Shown piece after piece: positions 38,027 to 44,611 of a DNA stretch of 64,000 nucleotides. The notes beneath the pieces are model-generated. The model searched no databases. It was not told the DNA's origin and worked only from the letters and a program-made list of their open reading frames with translations. Every line of letters starts with the position of its first letter. Position 1 is the stretch's first letter. Source of the DNA: Allosaccharopolyspora coralli. GTDB taxonomy: Bacteria; Actinomycetota; Actinomycetes; Mycobacteriales; Pseudonocardiaceae. Location of the stretch: positions 3,410,001-3,474,000 of the forward strand of contig NZ_CP045929.1 of the NCBI RefSeq assembly GCF_009664835.1, written 5' to 3'. The translations under genes and the position numbers were made by a program.

Positions 38027-38041
38027 CCCCCGGCGCACACA

Positions 38042-38432
38042 CCAGACGAGGCGAAAGTGCCGTTCGCTCCACCCGACGGGCGCGCATCTCATGAGGCGAA
38101 AGTGCCGTTCGCCCCACCAGACGAGGCGAAAGTGCCACTCGCCCCACCCGAAGGGCGCGCATCTGATGAGGCGAAAGTGCCGTTCGCCTCACGAGACGAG
38201 GCGAAAGTGCCGTTCGCCCCACCAGACGAGGCGAAAGTGCCGCTCGCCCCACCAGAAGGGCGCGCATCTGATGAGGCGAAAGTGCCACTCGCCCCACCCG
38301 AAGGGCGCGCATCTCATGAGGCGAAAGTGCCGTTCGCCCCACCAGACGAGGCGAAAGTGCCGCTCGCCCCACGAGACGAGGCGAAAGTGCCGCTCGCCCC
38401 ACGAGACGAGGCGAGAGTGCCGTTCGCCTCAG
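38042..38432. repeat. GGCGAA repeat array: 11 same-strand units
   Basis: Eleven copies of GAGGCGAAAGTGCC followed by GTTCGCC, GCTCGCC or ACTCGCC, all in the same orientation. Units are spaced either about 27 bp apart (linker CCACCAGAC or CCACGAGAC) or about 42-45 bp apart (with an extra GAAGGGCGCGCATCT). Both spacings are multiples of three, so several long frames stay open by chance. It fills the space between convergent PPOX and hisA. It is not a CRISPR array because the spacers are themselves repeated. Confidence 0.85.
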
Positions 38433-40212: not shown

Positions 40213-40599
40213 TCATGCGACGTCCCGTGCCTGTGTCCCCTTCGTCTCGTCGACGCCCCAGGTCAGGATGCGGCGCGGGCGGATCCGGATCACGTCGTCG
40301 CCGTTGTCGCCGCCGCCGGAGAGCGCCGCTGCCGTCCCCCGGATCTCCACGCCGCGCGTCGTCCACGGCTTGCGGGAGACGAGATCGTCGACGACGAACG
40401 TCACCCGCTCGTCGCCCTGCACGTTGCGCCATTTCTGGCTGTCCGCAAGACCGAAGCCGTAGACGTCGATCGTCGTCCCGTCCGGGCCGAGGTGCACGAG
40501 CACCGGGCGGGCCTGCGGTGCCCCCGACGGGCTCAAGGTGCACAGCCGTCCGAGTGTCTGCGACCGCAGGTATTCCGCCTCCGCCGGTGTGAACGCCAT
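40213..40599 (-). CDS. PPOX-class F420-dependent oxidoreductase
   Basis: A 128-aa split-barrel flavin-fold protein. It begins MAFTPAEAEYLRSQTLGRLCTLSPSGAPQARPVLVHLG, typical of F420-dependent PPOX proteins in actinobacteria, and continues WRNVQGDERVTFVVDDLVSRKPWTTRGVEIRGTAAAL. The ATG at 40599 has GAGAGGGA upstream. It lies 22 bp downstream of the transketolase-like genes on the same strand, so it may be the third gene of a SoxR-controlled operon. The substrate is unknown. Confidence 0.88.
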   Translation of the reverse strand: MAFTPAEAEYLRSQTLGRLCTLSPSGAPQARPVLVHLGPDGTTIDVYGFGLADSQKWRNVQGDERVTFVVDDLVSRKPWTTRGVEIRGTAAALSGGGDNGDDVIRIRPRRILTWGVDETKGTQARDVA

Positions 40600-40621: not shown

Positions 40622-41536
40622 TCACCGGAAGAACGCCCGGAGTGACGAGGCGATCTGCTTCGGTGTGAGCCCGTGTGCCGTGTCGTGGTCCTCGATGTCG
40701 CCGTAGTCCCGGAGTTCATTGTCGCGGGTCACCCCCAGGGACAGCACGCGGTGCGGCAGGTCGTGCAGCGCGTCGTCGACGACGTGCGCGGAGGTTCCGG
40801 CGAGGTACGGCTCCACGAGCGCCACGTCCGGCGCCGCGAGCTTCGCGGCCGCACGCAGCGTGCGGTGGTCGAACGGACGGACCGTCGCCGCGTACAGGAC
40901 GCTGACGTCGAGGTTCGCGGTCGCCTCGAGCACCGGGTCCAGCATCGGCCCGACCGCGAGCACCACTCCGGTCCCGCCGCTACGGACGCGCACCAGGCCC
41001 GGCCCGGTGGCGACGGGTTCGGAATTCTGCCGCTCCGACATCCGCAGGTACACCAGTCCGTCACCGCTGAGCGCGGTGCGCAGCAGCGGGTCGAGCTCGT
41101 CTGCGTGGCCGGGCACGTGAATCGTCCAGTGCGGCAGCGTGTCGAGGAGCGCGACGTCGCCGGGCGCCATGTGCGTCCGGCCGGCGAACGGATAGTCGTA
41201 GGAGCCTCCGGTGCTCACCAGCACCGCCCCGACACCCTGGTGGTTGAGGTCCAGCTTGAGCTGTTCGAACGGGCGCTCGACCGCGAACGGCGTGATCGTG
41301 TGCACGACGGGTCGCATTCCGGCGAGCGCGAGCCCACCGGCGGTGCTGACGAGCAGCTGTTCGCGGATCCCGACGTTGAGCACCCGGTCCGGGTGACGGG
41401 CCTGGGCTTGCTCGAACCGGTCGGAGGAGATGTCGGCGAGAACGACGGCGAGGTTCGCTTGGTCGTCCAGTGCCCGGTCGACGGTGTGCACGAACCGTTC
41501 CCGCATGGTCGTGGCAGGTGTTTCGGTGGTGGTCAT
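40622..41536 (-). CDS. Transketolase-like enzyme, C-terminal (pyrimidine-binding) subunit
   Basis: A 304-aa subunit equal to the middle and C-terminal domains of transketolase. The Pyr domain has VVLADISSDRF and VLNVGIREQLLVSTAGGLALAGMRPVVHTITPFAVERPFEQ, where the Glu of IREQ should activate thiamine diphosphate. The C-terminal domain begins near VRVRSGGTGVVLAVGPML. Together with the neighbouring 235-aa gene it forms a split transketolase as in archaea and sugar-degradation gene clusters. GGGAGAG precedes the ATG at 41536. Substrate specificity is unknown. Confidence 0.85.
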   Translation of the reverse strand: MTTTETPATTMRERFVHTVDRALDDQANLAVVLADISSDRFEQAQARHPDRVLNVGIREQLLVSTAGGLALAGMRPVVHTITPFAVERPFEQLKLDLNHQGVGAVLVSTGGSYDYPFAGRTHMAPGDVALLDTLPHWTIHVPGHADELDPLLRTALSGDGLVYLRMSERQNSEPVATGPGLVRVRSGGTGVVLAVGPMLDPVLEATANLDVSVLYAATVRPFDHRTLRAAAKLAAPDVALVEPYLAGTSAHVVDDALHDLPHRVLSLGVTRDNELRDYGDIEDHDTAHGLTPKQIASSLRAFFR

Positions 41537-41556
41537 GGTGGTCTCTCCCTGAGAGG

Positions 41557-42264
41557 TCAGTTTCGGGGTTCGACTCGCGCGACGACCGCGAGCGGCCGGT
41601 CGTGACGGGTGTCGGTGAGGGCTCGGTACAGCGCGGAGTGGTCTCGTCCGTCGACGGTGTGAGCGGCCCAGCCCTCCCGGGCGAAACGCTCGGCGATCCC
41701 GTCCGGCCAGCCGTGCGTGGCGGACTGGTTGTCCACGACGACAGTGGTGAGGCTGCCGAGCCCCGCGCGGCCCGCGTAGGCGATGGCCTCGTGGTTGCTG
41801 CCCTCGTCGAGTTCGGCGTCTCCGACGAGCACCACCACGCGGGGGTCGTGCTTGGCCCGAGCGCGGAGCCCGAGCGCGGTCCCCACCCCCAGCGGGAGAC
41901 CGTGCCCGAGCGAGCCGCTGCCGATCTCGGCACCGGGCACGAGTACCCGGTCCGGATGGAACCCCAGCCGGGAGCCGACCGTTCCCCACCCGTCGAGTTC
42001 CTCCGGAGCGAAGAAGCCTTTCGCGGCGAGCACCGCGTAATAGGCCATCGGACCGTGGCCCTTGGAAAGCAGGAATCGGTCTCGGTCGGCGTCGTCGACC
42101 CGGTCGGAGGAGACCGAGAGAATCCGGTCGTAGAGCACCCACAGGACGTCGAGCGTCGAGGTGGCGGCGTTGTCGTGTTTCTCGTCCCCGGTCATGCGCG
42201 CCATCAGCGGCCGGAGGTCGTCGTAGCCGAACTCGGTGCGCTCGGCGGTCGGTGTCGTCGTCAT
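41557..42264 (-). CDS. Transketolase-like enzyme, N-terminal (ThDP-binding) subunit
   Basis: A 235-aa subunit equal to the thiamine-diphosphate (PP) domain. Characteristic text: FLLSKGHGPMAYYAVLAAKGFF, GSLGHGLPLGVGTALGLRARAKHDPRVVVLVGDAELDEGSNHEAIAYAGRAGLGSLTTVVVDN, which is the ThDP/metal motif GD-E--EG...N. It precedes the C-terminal subunit by 20 bp, so they form one operon. The ATG at 42264 is the likely start; the ribosome site is weak (CTGGG). A 19-bp-spaced promoter with a MerR-type dyad lies upstream, divergent from soxR. Confidence 0.87.
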   Translation of the reverse strand: MTTTPTAERTEFGYDDLRPLMARMTGDEKHDNAATSTLDVLWVLYDRILSVSSDRVDDADRDRFLLSKGHGPMAYYAVLAAKGFFAPEELDGWGTVGSRLGFHPDRVLVPGAEIGSGSLGHGLPLGVGTALGLRARAKHDPRVVVLVGDAELDEGSNHEAIAYAGRAGLGSLTTVVVDNQSATHGWPDGIAERFAREGWAAHTVDGRDHSALYRALTDTRHDRPLAVVARVEPRN

Positions 42265-42271
42265 GAGACCC

Positions 42272-42302
42272 AGCCTGAAACTTCGAGTTCGCTGGAAGTC
42301 AA
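42272..42302 (-). promoter_or_regulatory. MerR/SoxR-type promoter of the transketolase-like operon
   Basis: Minus-strand -35 TTGACT (42297-42302) and -10 CAGGCT (42272-42277) are 19 bp apart, the long spacing typical of MerR-family targets. A 20-bp dyad, ACTTC...GAAGT (42280-42299), covers the spacer. A SoxR gene is next door. Confidence 0.65.
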
Positions 42303-42320
42303 GGAATTCCGAACCGAAAT

Positions 42321-42352
42321 ACTTCGACTGCACTTGAAGTTTTCGCTAGGAT
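42321..42352 (+). promoter_or_regulatory. SoxR-type operator and -10 box of soxR
   Basis: A second ACTTC...GAAGT dyad (42321-42340) of the same 20-bp length is followed by a TAGGAT -10 box (42347-42352) exactly 6 nt before the GTG of soxR. It fits autoregulation and a leaderless mRNA. Confidence 0.6.
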
Positions 42353-42358
42353 GGCCCC

Positions 42359-42820
42359 GTGTCGAAGCTTCCGAACCTGTTGTCCATCGGCGAGGTCTCC
42401 CACCGCAGCGGTGTCGCCCAGACGGCCTTGCGGTTCTACGAGGAACGCGGCCTCATCCGTTCCACCCGCACCGGCGGCAACCAACGGCGGTACGAGCGCC
42501 AGGTCCTGCGCAGGCTCGCGTTCATCCGGGCGGCGCAACGCGTCGGCCTCAACCTGGAACAGATCGGCGAGGCACTCGCGACGCTGCCCGAGGACCACGC
42601 TCCCACCAAGGCCGACTGGACACGACTGTCCCGAACCTGGCGGGACGAACTCGACGCGCGAATCGACGGTTTGCAGCGGCTGCGGGACAACCTCACCGGC
42701 TGCATCGGCTGCGGCTGCCTGTCGTTGCGCACCTGCGCACTGAACAACCCCGACGACGAACTCGCCGAGTTCGGCCCCGGCTCGTCCCGCCTGCGCCCCC
42801 GAGCCGACAACGCCTCTTGA
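42359..42820 (+). CDS. soxR: Redox-sensing transcriptional activator SoxR
   Basis: A 153-aa MerR-family regulator with a [2Fe-2S] cluster. The N-terminal winged helix is SIGEVSHRSGVAQTALRFYEERGLIRSTRTGGNQRRYERQVLRRLAFIRAAQRVGLNLEQIGEAL. Four cysteines in the CX2CXCX5C pattern (residues 115, 118, 120 and 126) bind the cluster, so it should sense redox-cycling compounds. It is divergent from the transketolase-like operon; both promoters carry similar dyads. The C-terminal tail (about 25 residues) is longer than in E. coli. The start is a GTG without a ribosome site. Confidence 0.93.
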   Translation: MSKLPNLLSIGEVSHRSGVAQTALRFYEERGLIRSTRTGGNQRRYERQVLRRLAFIRAAQRVGLNLEQIGEALATLPEDHAPTKADWTRLSRTWRDELDARIDGLQRLRDNLTGCIGCGCLSLRTCALNNPDDELAEFGPGSSRLRPRADNAS

Positions 42821-42875: not shown

Positions 42876-43095
42876 TGCCCGTCTGTGATCGTGTTCTGAT
42901 GCGCGTCAGGGCATGGTCTCGCGTGCTCAGCCCGAGCACGGTGAGAAGCTCCGGTGTTCCAGGTTGTCGCTCGCAAGGCCGGGGCCGCCGCTGCGTACGT
43001 GCTGGTACTCGAGGCGACCCCAACACCGCGAGCGACAAGCTGGGACGCCGGTCAGCGACCACCACCGCAGGTCAATAACAGCCTCTCAGAACCGG
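42876..43095. repeat. Modular 3'-end repeat (copy 6, long form)
   Basis: About 220 bp with GGTCTCGCGTG, GAGCACGGTGAG, AAGCTCCGGTGTTCCAGG, CTCGCAAGGCCGGGG, GGTACTCGAGGCGACCCCAA, ACACCGCGAGCG, GGGACGCCGGTCAGCGACC and AACAGCCTCTCAGAA. It fills the space between the convergent soxR and flavoprotein genes. Its last bases contain the flavoprotein stop codon. Confidence 0.75.
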
Positions 43096-44453
43096 GGCGC
43101 CAGTTTCCACAGCGCTCCTTCGAGTTCCTCGCTGAAAGTGGGGAATGGATGGATCACGTCCGTGGTGTCGGTGATGGGGATTTCTGAGCGAAGAGCTTGG
43201 GAAAGCTCGGAGATCCATTCCTCGGCTCGACCTCCGGTGGCGGTCGCCCCGAGCAGGGTGCCGGTGTGCGGATCTGCGATCAGTTTGAGCCAGCCCTGTG
43301 TCGTGCCGTCGATGGTGGCGCGGACGGTGTCGGATACGGCAGCTGTCGCGATCACCGGTTCGGTGCCTGCTTGCCGAGCGGAGGCTTCCGTGTGTCCGAC
43401 GGATGCGAACGTCGGGTCGGTGTAGACCGTCCGCGGCAGGGCCCGGTAGTCGGTTCGCACCGGCCTACCTGCGAGGTTCGCCGCCACGACCCGCCCTTGG
43501 TAGTGCGCGGTGTGGGTGAACGGGGCTGGGCCTGCGGCGTCGCCGATGGCCCACACATTGTCCGTTCCGGTGACACGACAGTGCTCGTCGGTCGGGAGAA
43601 ACCCTCTCTCGTCGGGCACTACGCCCAGGGTGTCGAGGCCGATGTCGGTCGTGGCGGGTGTGCGGCCGGTGGCGAACAGGAGTGTGTCGGCCGCGACGGA
43701 GTACTCGGTGTCGAGGAGGACACGGGTGCGTCCTTCCTGTGTCTGCACTTCGCTGGCCGTCGTGCTGAGTGCTACCTGCACGCCGAGTCCTTCGAGGGTG
43801 TCGGCCATCTGTTGCGAGGCTTCGGGTTCCTCTCGGGGGATCAGTCGGGAGGCGCGTTGTACCAGCGTGACCGTGCAGCCGAAAGCGGCGAACAGGTACG
43901 CCATCTCGCAACCCACGGGGCCACCGCCCACGATGACGAGCGAGTCGGGGTACTCCGCGGTGCTCATCGCATGTTCACTGGTCCACGCGGCGATGTCGTC
44001 GAGGCCGGGGATGTCGTCGGGCACGGTCGGTGTCGATCCCGTGTTGAGCACGAGGTCGCGATAGCCGATCTCCTCACCGTCCACCGTCACCACGCCTGGC
44101 CGGGCGATCCGGCCGTGACCACGGACCAACGTGGCGCCGGTCTCGGCCAGAGCTGCCGCGCCGGCGCTGTCGTCCCGGTCGTGCACCAGGCGGTCGCGGC
44201 GTCGAACGGCTTGGTCGTACGCCTGCCGGGCCGAGACTCCGCCGGTGAACAGGTCGGTGAACTGGCCGTGCGCTGCGAGTCGCCACGTGGCAGCGGTCTG
44301 CAACATCGCCTTGCTGGGTACGCAGGCGAAAAAGGGGCAGTGGCCGCCCACGAGGCCGGACTCGATCACCGCCACGGATCCGCCGGGCACCGATCCCCAG
44401 ATCATCTTCGCGCCGGCCCCGCCACCGAGGATGACGACATCGAACGATCGCAT
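43086..44453 (-). CDS. Dihydrolipoamide dehydrogenase-like flavoprotein disulfide reductase
   Basis: A 455-aa class I flavoprotein disulfide reductase. The FAD motif is DVVILGGGAGAKMIWG and the NAD(P) motif is LVIVGGGPVGCEMAYLF. The redox-active Cys pair is in GGHCPFFACVPSKAML (CX4C), and the second FAD motif is NVWAIGDAAGPAPFTHTAHYQGR. The C-terminal dimer domain has VIHPFPTFSEEL in place of H-HPT-SE. The catalytic base His therefore appears to be Phe, so ordinary lipoamide or glutathione-type turnover is doubtful. The ATG at 44453 has GAGAGGG upstream. Mercuric-reductase-like and mycothiol-related roles are alternatives. Confidence 0.85.
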   Translation of the reverse strand: MRSFDVVILGGGAGAKMIWGSVPGGSVAVIESGLVGGHCPFFACVPSKAMLQTAATWRLAAHGQFTDLFTGGVSARQAYDQAVRRRDRLVHDRDDSAGAAALAETGATLVRGHGRIARPGVVTVDGEEIGYRDLVLNTGSTPTVPDDIPGLDDIAAWTSEHAMSTAEYPDSLVIVGGGPVGCEMAYLFAAFGCTVTLVQRASRLIPREEPEASQQMADTLEGLGVQVALSTTASEVQTQEGRTRVLLDTEYSVAADTLLFATGRTPATTDIGLDTLGVVPDERGFLPTDEHCRVTGTDNVWAIGDAAGPAPFTHTAHYQGRVVAANLAGRPVRTDYRALPRTVYTDPTFASVGHTEASARQAGTEPVIATAAVSDTVRATIDGTTQGWLKLIADPHTGTLLGATATGGRAEEWISELSQALRSEIPITDTTDVIHPFPTFSEELEGALWKLAPRF

Positions 44454-44611
44454 GGTCTGCCCTCTCGATTCGAGGCCGCACACCGGTCTCGTGCGCGAAG
44501 CTAACACTCACACTCGAGAGCCGCCGATCGCCGACGCGAGCAGCCCGCTCCGCCGCTGCTGAACGCGAACAGCGCGAACCCGCCGAAGATCGAGGCACTC
44601 AACGGCGGAGG

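Follow-up and report, generated by a model that had tools for sequence, protein, structure and literature searches.

The window, a 64,000-nucleotide stretch of the Allosaccharopolyspora coralli genome (contig NZ_CP045929.1, positions 3,410,001 to 3,474,000), carries a soxR gene oriented divergently from two genes for a split transketolase-like enzyme, here called tkN and tkC. The letters and coordinates agree with the first-pass annotation, which had described a 94-bp gap between soxR and tkN (42265–42358), two 20-bp dyads whose starts lie 41 bp apart, and a promoter toward each gene. The features, by position in the window, are:

40213–40599, minus strand: ORF for a PPOX-class F420-type oxidoreductase (MSMEG_5819 family; TIGR04023, 122.1 vs 85.6 bits)
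40622–41539, minus strand: tkC, Pyr and C-terminal subunit, 305 aa (PF02779, 1.8e-23)
41557–42264, minus strand: tkN, ThDP-binding (PP) subunit, 235 aa (PF00456, 3.5e-25)
42277–42272, minus strand: tkN −10 element CAGGCT, 19 bp from the −35 element and 7 bp before the tkN ATG (42264)
42280–42299, minus strand: putative SoxR box 1 (dyad 1, tkN promoter operator), ACTTCGAGTTCGCTGGAAGT, 14 of 20 positions self-complementary, 24.7 bits
42302–42297, minus strand: tkN −35 element TTGACT, in the same register as TTTACC of E. coli soxS
42321–42340, plus strand: putative SoxR box 2 (dyad 2, soxR promoter side), ACTTCGACTGCACTTGAAGT, 16 of 20 positions self-complementary, 26.7 bits
42347–42352, plus strand: soxR −10 element TAGGAT, 6 bp past box 2 and 6 bp ahead of the soxR GTG (42359)
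42359–42820, plus strand: soxR, 153 aa (TIGR01950 SoxR equivalog, 212.2 bits against a cut-off of 116.9)

The soxR product is the sole TIGR01950 match above the cut-off in the 4.83-Mb genome, which has 16 MerR-domain matches, 15 of them above the cut-off. The [2Fe-2S] motif CIGCGCLSLRTC (C-x2-C-x-C-x5-C) is present at residue 115.

Predicted operators and promoters between soxR and tkN

A weight matrix for the SoxR box was built on 81 distinct boxes of relatives, with the window excluded. Of all 20-mers in the window, dyads 2 and 1 score highest (26.7 and 24.7 bits), and the third best reaches 4.2 bits. None of 100 sequences generated from the window itself with an order-3 Markov model attained either score (best 21.4 bits). 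The dyads are therefore not due to chance. A control outside the phylum was provided by 5 kb around E. coli soxRS: the matrix puts the soxS operator TCCTCAAGTTAACTTGAGGT first with 25.5 bits, and the runner-up scores −0.1. The two promoters share one register, TTTACC-TCAAGTTAACTTGAGGAAT-TATACT at soxS and TTGACT-TCCAGCGAACTCGAAGTTT-CAGGCT at tkN. The regions ahead of five further transketolase genes of relatives (L034–L038, split or full-length) score −2.2 at most.

Box 1 lies between the −35 and −10 elements of the tkN promoter, and the 19-bp spacer corresponds to the geometry of SoxR-activated promoters (19–20 bp). The soxR promoter is built differently. Here box 2 covers the −35 region, and its centre is 16.5 bp from the start of the −10 element, as against 12.5 bp for box 1 at tkN. 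Because it is 4 bp further from its −10 element than dyad 1 is, box 2 looks autoregulatory and not activated in the manner of soxS; we infer that it is a duplicated operator for the autoregulation of soxR. The −10 element is mostly 6–7 nt from the start codon (25 of the 31 sites in which the alignment runs from residue 1), so the tkN mRNA is likely leaderless.

The layout resembles that of E. coli soxR–soxS, with a divergent regulator and target, a box in a 19-bp spacer and a single register; the intergenic region measures 85 bp there and 94 bp here. Unlike in E. coli, the target is an enzyme operon reached without a SoxS step, soxR has a second box, and the start codons follow 6–7 bp past the −10 elements. 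E. coli SoxR works from one site, activating soxS and repressing soxR. For S. coelicolor, the available text of a 2014 study (PMC4146615) describes soxR as not autoregulated and reports a potential box upstream of about 13% of the Streptomyces soxR genes surveyed.

The first-pass annotation had spoken of two matching operators and had proposed a search for the same pair in relatives. Among the 47 listed loci at which soxR adjoins tkN (window included), there is one site above 8 bits in 39, two in 8 and zero in none. A box is thus found at every such locus, and the pair is not a conserved design. A TANNNT motif occurs 5–9 bp past the soxR-side box in 33 of these 47 loci, so that at single-box loci the shared box overlies the −35 region of soxR.

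Conservation of the box and of the gene pair

A search covered 60 genomes, including that of A. coralli, and 39 match at E ≤ 1e-20. The close clade, set at E ≤ 1e-80, comprises 24 relatives and 25 loci (L009–L033, window included, 65–75% identity), with soxR adjoining tkN in 21 of the 25. SoxR is present in all 24 clade-bearing relatives. Across the 60 genomes, the clade and SoxR occur together in 25, SoxR alone in 27 and neither in 8, and no genome has the clade without SoxR (Fisher p 0.016, with the kinship of the genomes ignored); the clade is accordingly found in 0 of the 8 genomes without soxR.

From a scan of named genomes, the best 80 of 585 confirmed stretches were used. In these 80, soxR is adjacent in 20, 2.9 kb away in 2 and absent from the stretch in 58, some of the stretches being short. 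The same best 80 of 585 loci contain 973,422 20-mers, of which 83 score above 15 bits; 81 of these lie at most 160 bp upstream of tkN, and the remaining 2 are directly upstream of the soxR genes 2.9 kb distant. The box is present at the tkN promoter also in Streptomyces loci that have no soxR in the analysed stretch. At loci where soxR is not adjacent, the box is the one pointer to SoxR.

Over 105 orthologous loci (the window and the loci from the best 80 of 585 included; L056 and L016 are one genome), a regular expression that itself fixes TTGAC matches the box in 100 and misses L025, L029, L031, L066 and L112. L025 has a box with TTGACA that scores 26.2 bits by the matrix, which brings the total to 101 of 105, matrix counts over these loci not being independent of the training of the matrix. 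At L029, L031, L066 and L112 no box was found by either the expression or the matrix. The −10 columns of tkN are free in the expression, and they hold A at position 2 in 99 of the 100 matches and T at position 6 in all 100.

A class-wide search placed the clade in 53 of 394 genomes. The 29 listed class-level loci other than the window, which may repeat species of the named-genome scan, have a box above 15 bits in 28 cases and an adjacent soxR in 6. The sole miss, L200, and L029 are one and the same gene.

This gene (G049:C1:182779) is a second split-transketolase copy without a SoxR box, and the other copy in that genome adjoins soxR. In many Streptomyces loci (L057–L125), a second conserved element, TGACCTGGGGTTTCCCC ... 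GAAACAATACCGCACTC, can be seen by eye upstream of the box.

The earlier claim that SoxR switches on the split transketolase finds strong comparative support in the box at 47 of 47 listed adjacent loci, in its retention without an adjacent soxR and in the soxS geometry. Judged by these sequence comparisons, SoxR control of tkN–tkC is very likely, and the switching itself may proceed as follows. From the computed box, its geometry and its conservation we infer that oxidised SoxR would bind box 1 and, by untwisting the promoter with its 19-bp spacer, turn on tkN–tkC. Promoter untwisting is established behaviour of MerR and SoxR proteins. SoxR would modulate its own gene as well, acting from the shared box in most relatives and from the additional box 2 in A. 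coralli.

The split enzyme

The PP and Pyr-TKC domains lie on two adjacent genes, as in split-gene transketolases. In tkC, PF02780 stays under the cut-off (20.8 vs 25.9). The structural model of tkN (pLDDT 84.5) has 6yak_AAA as its nearest fold (TM 0.84), and the model of tkC (pLDDT 88.1) is nearest to DXS and 6yaj. With NF004559, the model for full-length transketolase, the two chains score 124.9 and 76.9 bits of 488, a full-length cut-off that is ill-suited to a split gene. As a DXS, a single-chain enzyme, tkC falls far short (TIGR00204, 59.7 bits against a cut-off of 465.95). A canonical full-length transketolase is found elsewhere in the same genome.

The split transketolase of Carboxydothermus hydrogenoformans (ChTK; 6YAJ/6YAK) is the nearest solved relative of tkN and the top sequence match of tkC. 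In the available text of PMC7661550, it is likewise described as two linkerless chains, split into PP and Pyr, and as the only transketolase of its host, whereas the host of tkN–tkC has another. As aligned here, ChTK keeps EDGASHQ and a GR in line with R520; the SoxR-linked family has neither.

Residues were mapped on E. coli TktA in 134 listed members, among them the window and a few repeated entries from one genome. We take D155, N185 and E411 to serve ThDP/Mg binding and activation, and H261 and H461 to lie on the sugar-phosphate acceptor side. Nearly all of the 134 members keep H26, H66, H100, D155, N185, E411 and H473 (133 or 134 in each case; D155 and N185 in 133; E411, H66 and H473 in 134). 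The acceptor residues H261, H461, D469 and R520 are each kept in 0 of 134. The chain stops short of the H261 column, which is therefore empty, and the loss of R520 is alignment-dependent, since an arginine stands one position past that column in 10 of 21 members, window included. R358 and S385 were read from the 21-member alignment, the 134-member alignment being unusable at the start of tkC. R358 is present in 21 of 21, and the S385 column holds 12 A, 5 S, 2 R, 1 Y and 1 K. In four other split transketolases of relatives, D469 is replaced by Y, Y, L and L, and two are without H461. All four keep H261, S385 and R520. The change at D469 is thus found in other split transketolases and not in the SoxR-linked family alone. 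With this, the arginine beside the R520 column and the gap in the 134-member alignment at R358 and S385, the case for a changed substrate is weaker than the 0-of-134 counts make it look.

R358, S385, D469 and R520 are listed in the available part of PMC7661550. In E. coli transketolase, S385 contacts the substrate phosphate, and changes at S385, D469 and R520 shift acceptor use from phosphorylated to aromatic aldehydes (PMC5073344, as far as its text is available). The SoxR-linked family resembles the engineered E. coli enzyme S385Y/D469T/R520Q of that study in differing at D469 and R520, and its S385 column is variable; unlike the engineered enzyme, the family is also without the H261 loop and H461. 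The H100L mutation has been used to let transketolase accept pyruvate (PMC10787763, available text), so the kept H100 favours a hydroxylated ketol donor over pyruvate.

An ordinary pentose-phosphate role is doubtful because the H261, H461, D469 and R520 columns are lost or unconserved, with the ThDP core kept. The first-pass term, a ketol-transfer enzyme, fits the fold and the cofactor core; it is the sugar-phosphate substrate that the acceptor columns (0 of 134) call into question. On the computed residue differences, tkN–tkC is probably a ThDP ketol-transfer enzyme with a non-phosphorylated acceptor. It would be a two-chain enzyme of the transketolase/DXS fold that has retained the residues for cofactor activation and the ketol donor and has lost much of the acceptor site, and what it passes on would most likely be a two-carbon ketol unit.

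Predicted regulon, competing explanations and neighbouring genes

The strict pattern TTGACYTNNANNNNNNTNNARGT has 6 sites in the genome, against 0 for the pattern read backwards:

267708: before an FMN reductase
2276993: before an NmrA-like reductase with a SnoaL domain
2458777: before an ABC exporter
3303676: before an MFS exporter
3452280: before tkN
4397249 (L143): 14 bp before an arylamine N-acetyltransferase gene

With up to one mismatch allowed, there are 28 genome sites and 5 in the control. Three further sites are less certain or candidates:

3364259, less certain: box of perfect symmetry, about 130 bp ahead of an ORF for a TIGR03618 F420-type oxidoreductase
3305402 (L159:1003, L141), less certain: one-mismatch box, 20.1 bits, TTGACT-N19-TAGCGT, before a luciferase-like oxidoreductase ORF
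1597807 (L161), candidate: 15.2 bits, TTGACC-N19-GAAGCT, followed 7 bp later by the ATG of a 272-aa ORF

The luciferase-like oxidoreductase matches PF00296 with 48.4 vs 27.9 bits, and its box, together with that of the MFS exporter about 1.7 kb away, possibly marks a small drug-handling cluster. The 272-aa ORF has no Pfam match. Two other sites, 2274911 (7.2 bits) and 1728242 (4.0 bits), appear to be weak.

The five other strict sites and that of tkN make up a predicted drug-handling regulon. The flavin reductase, epimerase-type reductase and ABC exporter are also target classes of the S. coelicolor SoxR regulon, a direct regulon as well (PMC4146615, Table 4, available text). The six genes given there include no transketolase, and arylamine N-acetyltransferase is a class missing from that list. 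The MFS exporter, the acetyltransferase and, less certainly, the F420-type oxidoreductases extend beyond it.

The first-pass annotation knew of no described SoxR regulon with a transketolase. This agrees with the S. coelicolor list but not with a footnote to Table 4 of the same 2014 paper (PMC4146615, available text), which names S. avermitilis SAV_1623, a "putative transketolase", with a conserved predicted SoxR site. SAV_1623 appears to be orthologous to the tkN gene. The SoxR–transketolase link was thus foreshadowed and the target is not entirely new; the breadth, the regulon and the altered enzyme are. Our literature search, with subscription papers mostly outside its coverage, found no follow-up of the link or of SAV_1623.

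We favour, with a probability of roughly 0.78, a SoxR-controlled divergent module in which tkN–tkC would belong to a drug regulon and carry two-carbon ketol units to an acceptor that is not phosphorylated. In many soil actinobacteria the module would join the SoxR response to redox-active antibiotics, next to exporters, flavin- or NAD(P)H-type reductases and arylamine acetyltransferase. A more specific proposal makes tkN–tkC a detoxifying two-chain ThDP ligase, switched by SoxR, that would place a two-carbon ketol or glycolyl unit onto redox-active aromatics; we regard this as tentative and rather improbable. Candidate acceptors would be quinones, aromatic aldehydes or nitrosoarenes, the last of which would yield N-aryl hydroxamic acids. 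Such carboligation would be a way of inactivating drugs next to the exporters, reductases and arylamine acetyltransferase of the regulon. Work on N-aryl hydroxamic acids is cited in PMC10787763; our search for literature on transketolase with nitroso compounds or hydroxamic acid found nothing usable.

A biosynthetic rather than protective role, in which the enzyme would make or modify a particular secondary metabolite, seems unlikely to us. SoxR would then respond to the redox-active product, much as the S. coelicolor protein responds to actinorhodin. In favour of this, Streptomyces and its relatives, which are generally antibiotic producers, make up most of the named carriers among the best 80 of 585. 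The S. coelicolor SoxR targets, in the available text of PMC4146615, resemble antibiotic-tailoring enzymes. However, no biosynthetic neighbours are conserved across genera in the best 80 of 585 loci, and a clade present in 53 of 394 class genomes is wide for a single product. It is also improbable, in our judgement, that tkN–tkC is a SoxR-induced, oxidant-tolerant isozyme that, once the housekeeping transketolase has been damaged by superoxide, would sustain the pentose-phosphate pathway and the supply of NADPH/F420H2. The kept fold and ThDP core, R358 in 21 of 21 and the SoxR-type control would suit such an isozyme, as would the full-length transketolase elsewhere in the genome, which makes tkN–tkC an extra. 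Loss of D469 alone is no proof of a new substrate because other split transketolases share it. Against this stand the H261, H461, D469 and R520 columns, absent in 134 of 134 members, when the four other split enzymes keep H261, S385 and R520, and the other strict regulon sites, which precede drug-handling genes and not central metabolism. Benov and Fridovich reportedly found E. coli transketolase to be superoxide-sensitive. In the literature searched, including the available part of PMC4470864, this sensitivity was not found.

We give very little credence to the dyads serving another MerR-family regulator, or SoxR acting on its own gene only, with tkN a neighbour by chance. The genome does have 16 MerR-domain matches, and the window has one box per promoter, but the box persists at the tkN promoter in Streptomyces loci without soxR in the stretch, and a matrix made from these boxes also recovers the operator of E. 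coli SoxR, in a matching register.

With the SoxR-controlled module as the preferred reading, a one-line footnote becomes a conserved regulatory module across actinobacterial families, centred on a ThDP enzyme in which some natural changes coincide with those engineered for aromatic acceptors. If the reading is true, the SoxR regulons of antibiotic producers would include a C–C (or C–N) bond-forming enzyme directed against redox-active drugs. The natural series of a shared box, two boxes and a box without adjacent soxR could be used to follow the inheritance of a redox operator after its regulator and target have separated.

The PPOX ORF starts at 40599, 22 bp past the tkC stop, and is possibly co-transcribed with tkN–tkC here. 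The suggestion that it is a partner of the enzyme did not hold up among relatives, as it stands next to the pair in 1 of the best 80 of 585 named-genome loci and in 0 of 24 shorter loci of relatives. When the ORFs of the best 80 of 585 loci were clustered, tkN–tkC (with soxR outside Streptomyces) was the only unit found in both groups; neighbours confined to Streptomyces recur in at most 37 of the 80 loci and those confined to Pseudonocardiaceae in at most 10. Downstream of soxR, an ORF at 43086–44507 encodes a flavoprotein like MerA or lipoamide dehydrogenase, which falls under the cut-off of all 25 listed NCBIfam models (47 matched). It was considered as a SoxR target and rejected, since no further 20-mer of the window exceeds 4.2 bits. 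At 38040–38428, between a hisA-like ORF and a small PPOX-like ORF, a tandem array of units of about 30 bp can be seen by eye, each with an inverted repeat resembling GGCGAA...TTCGCC.
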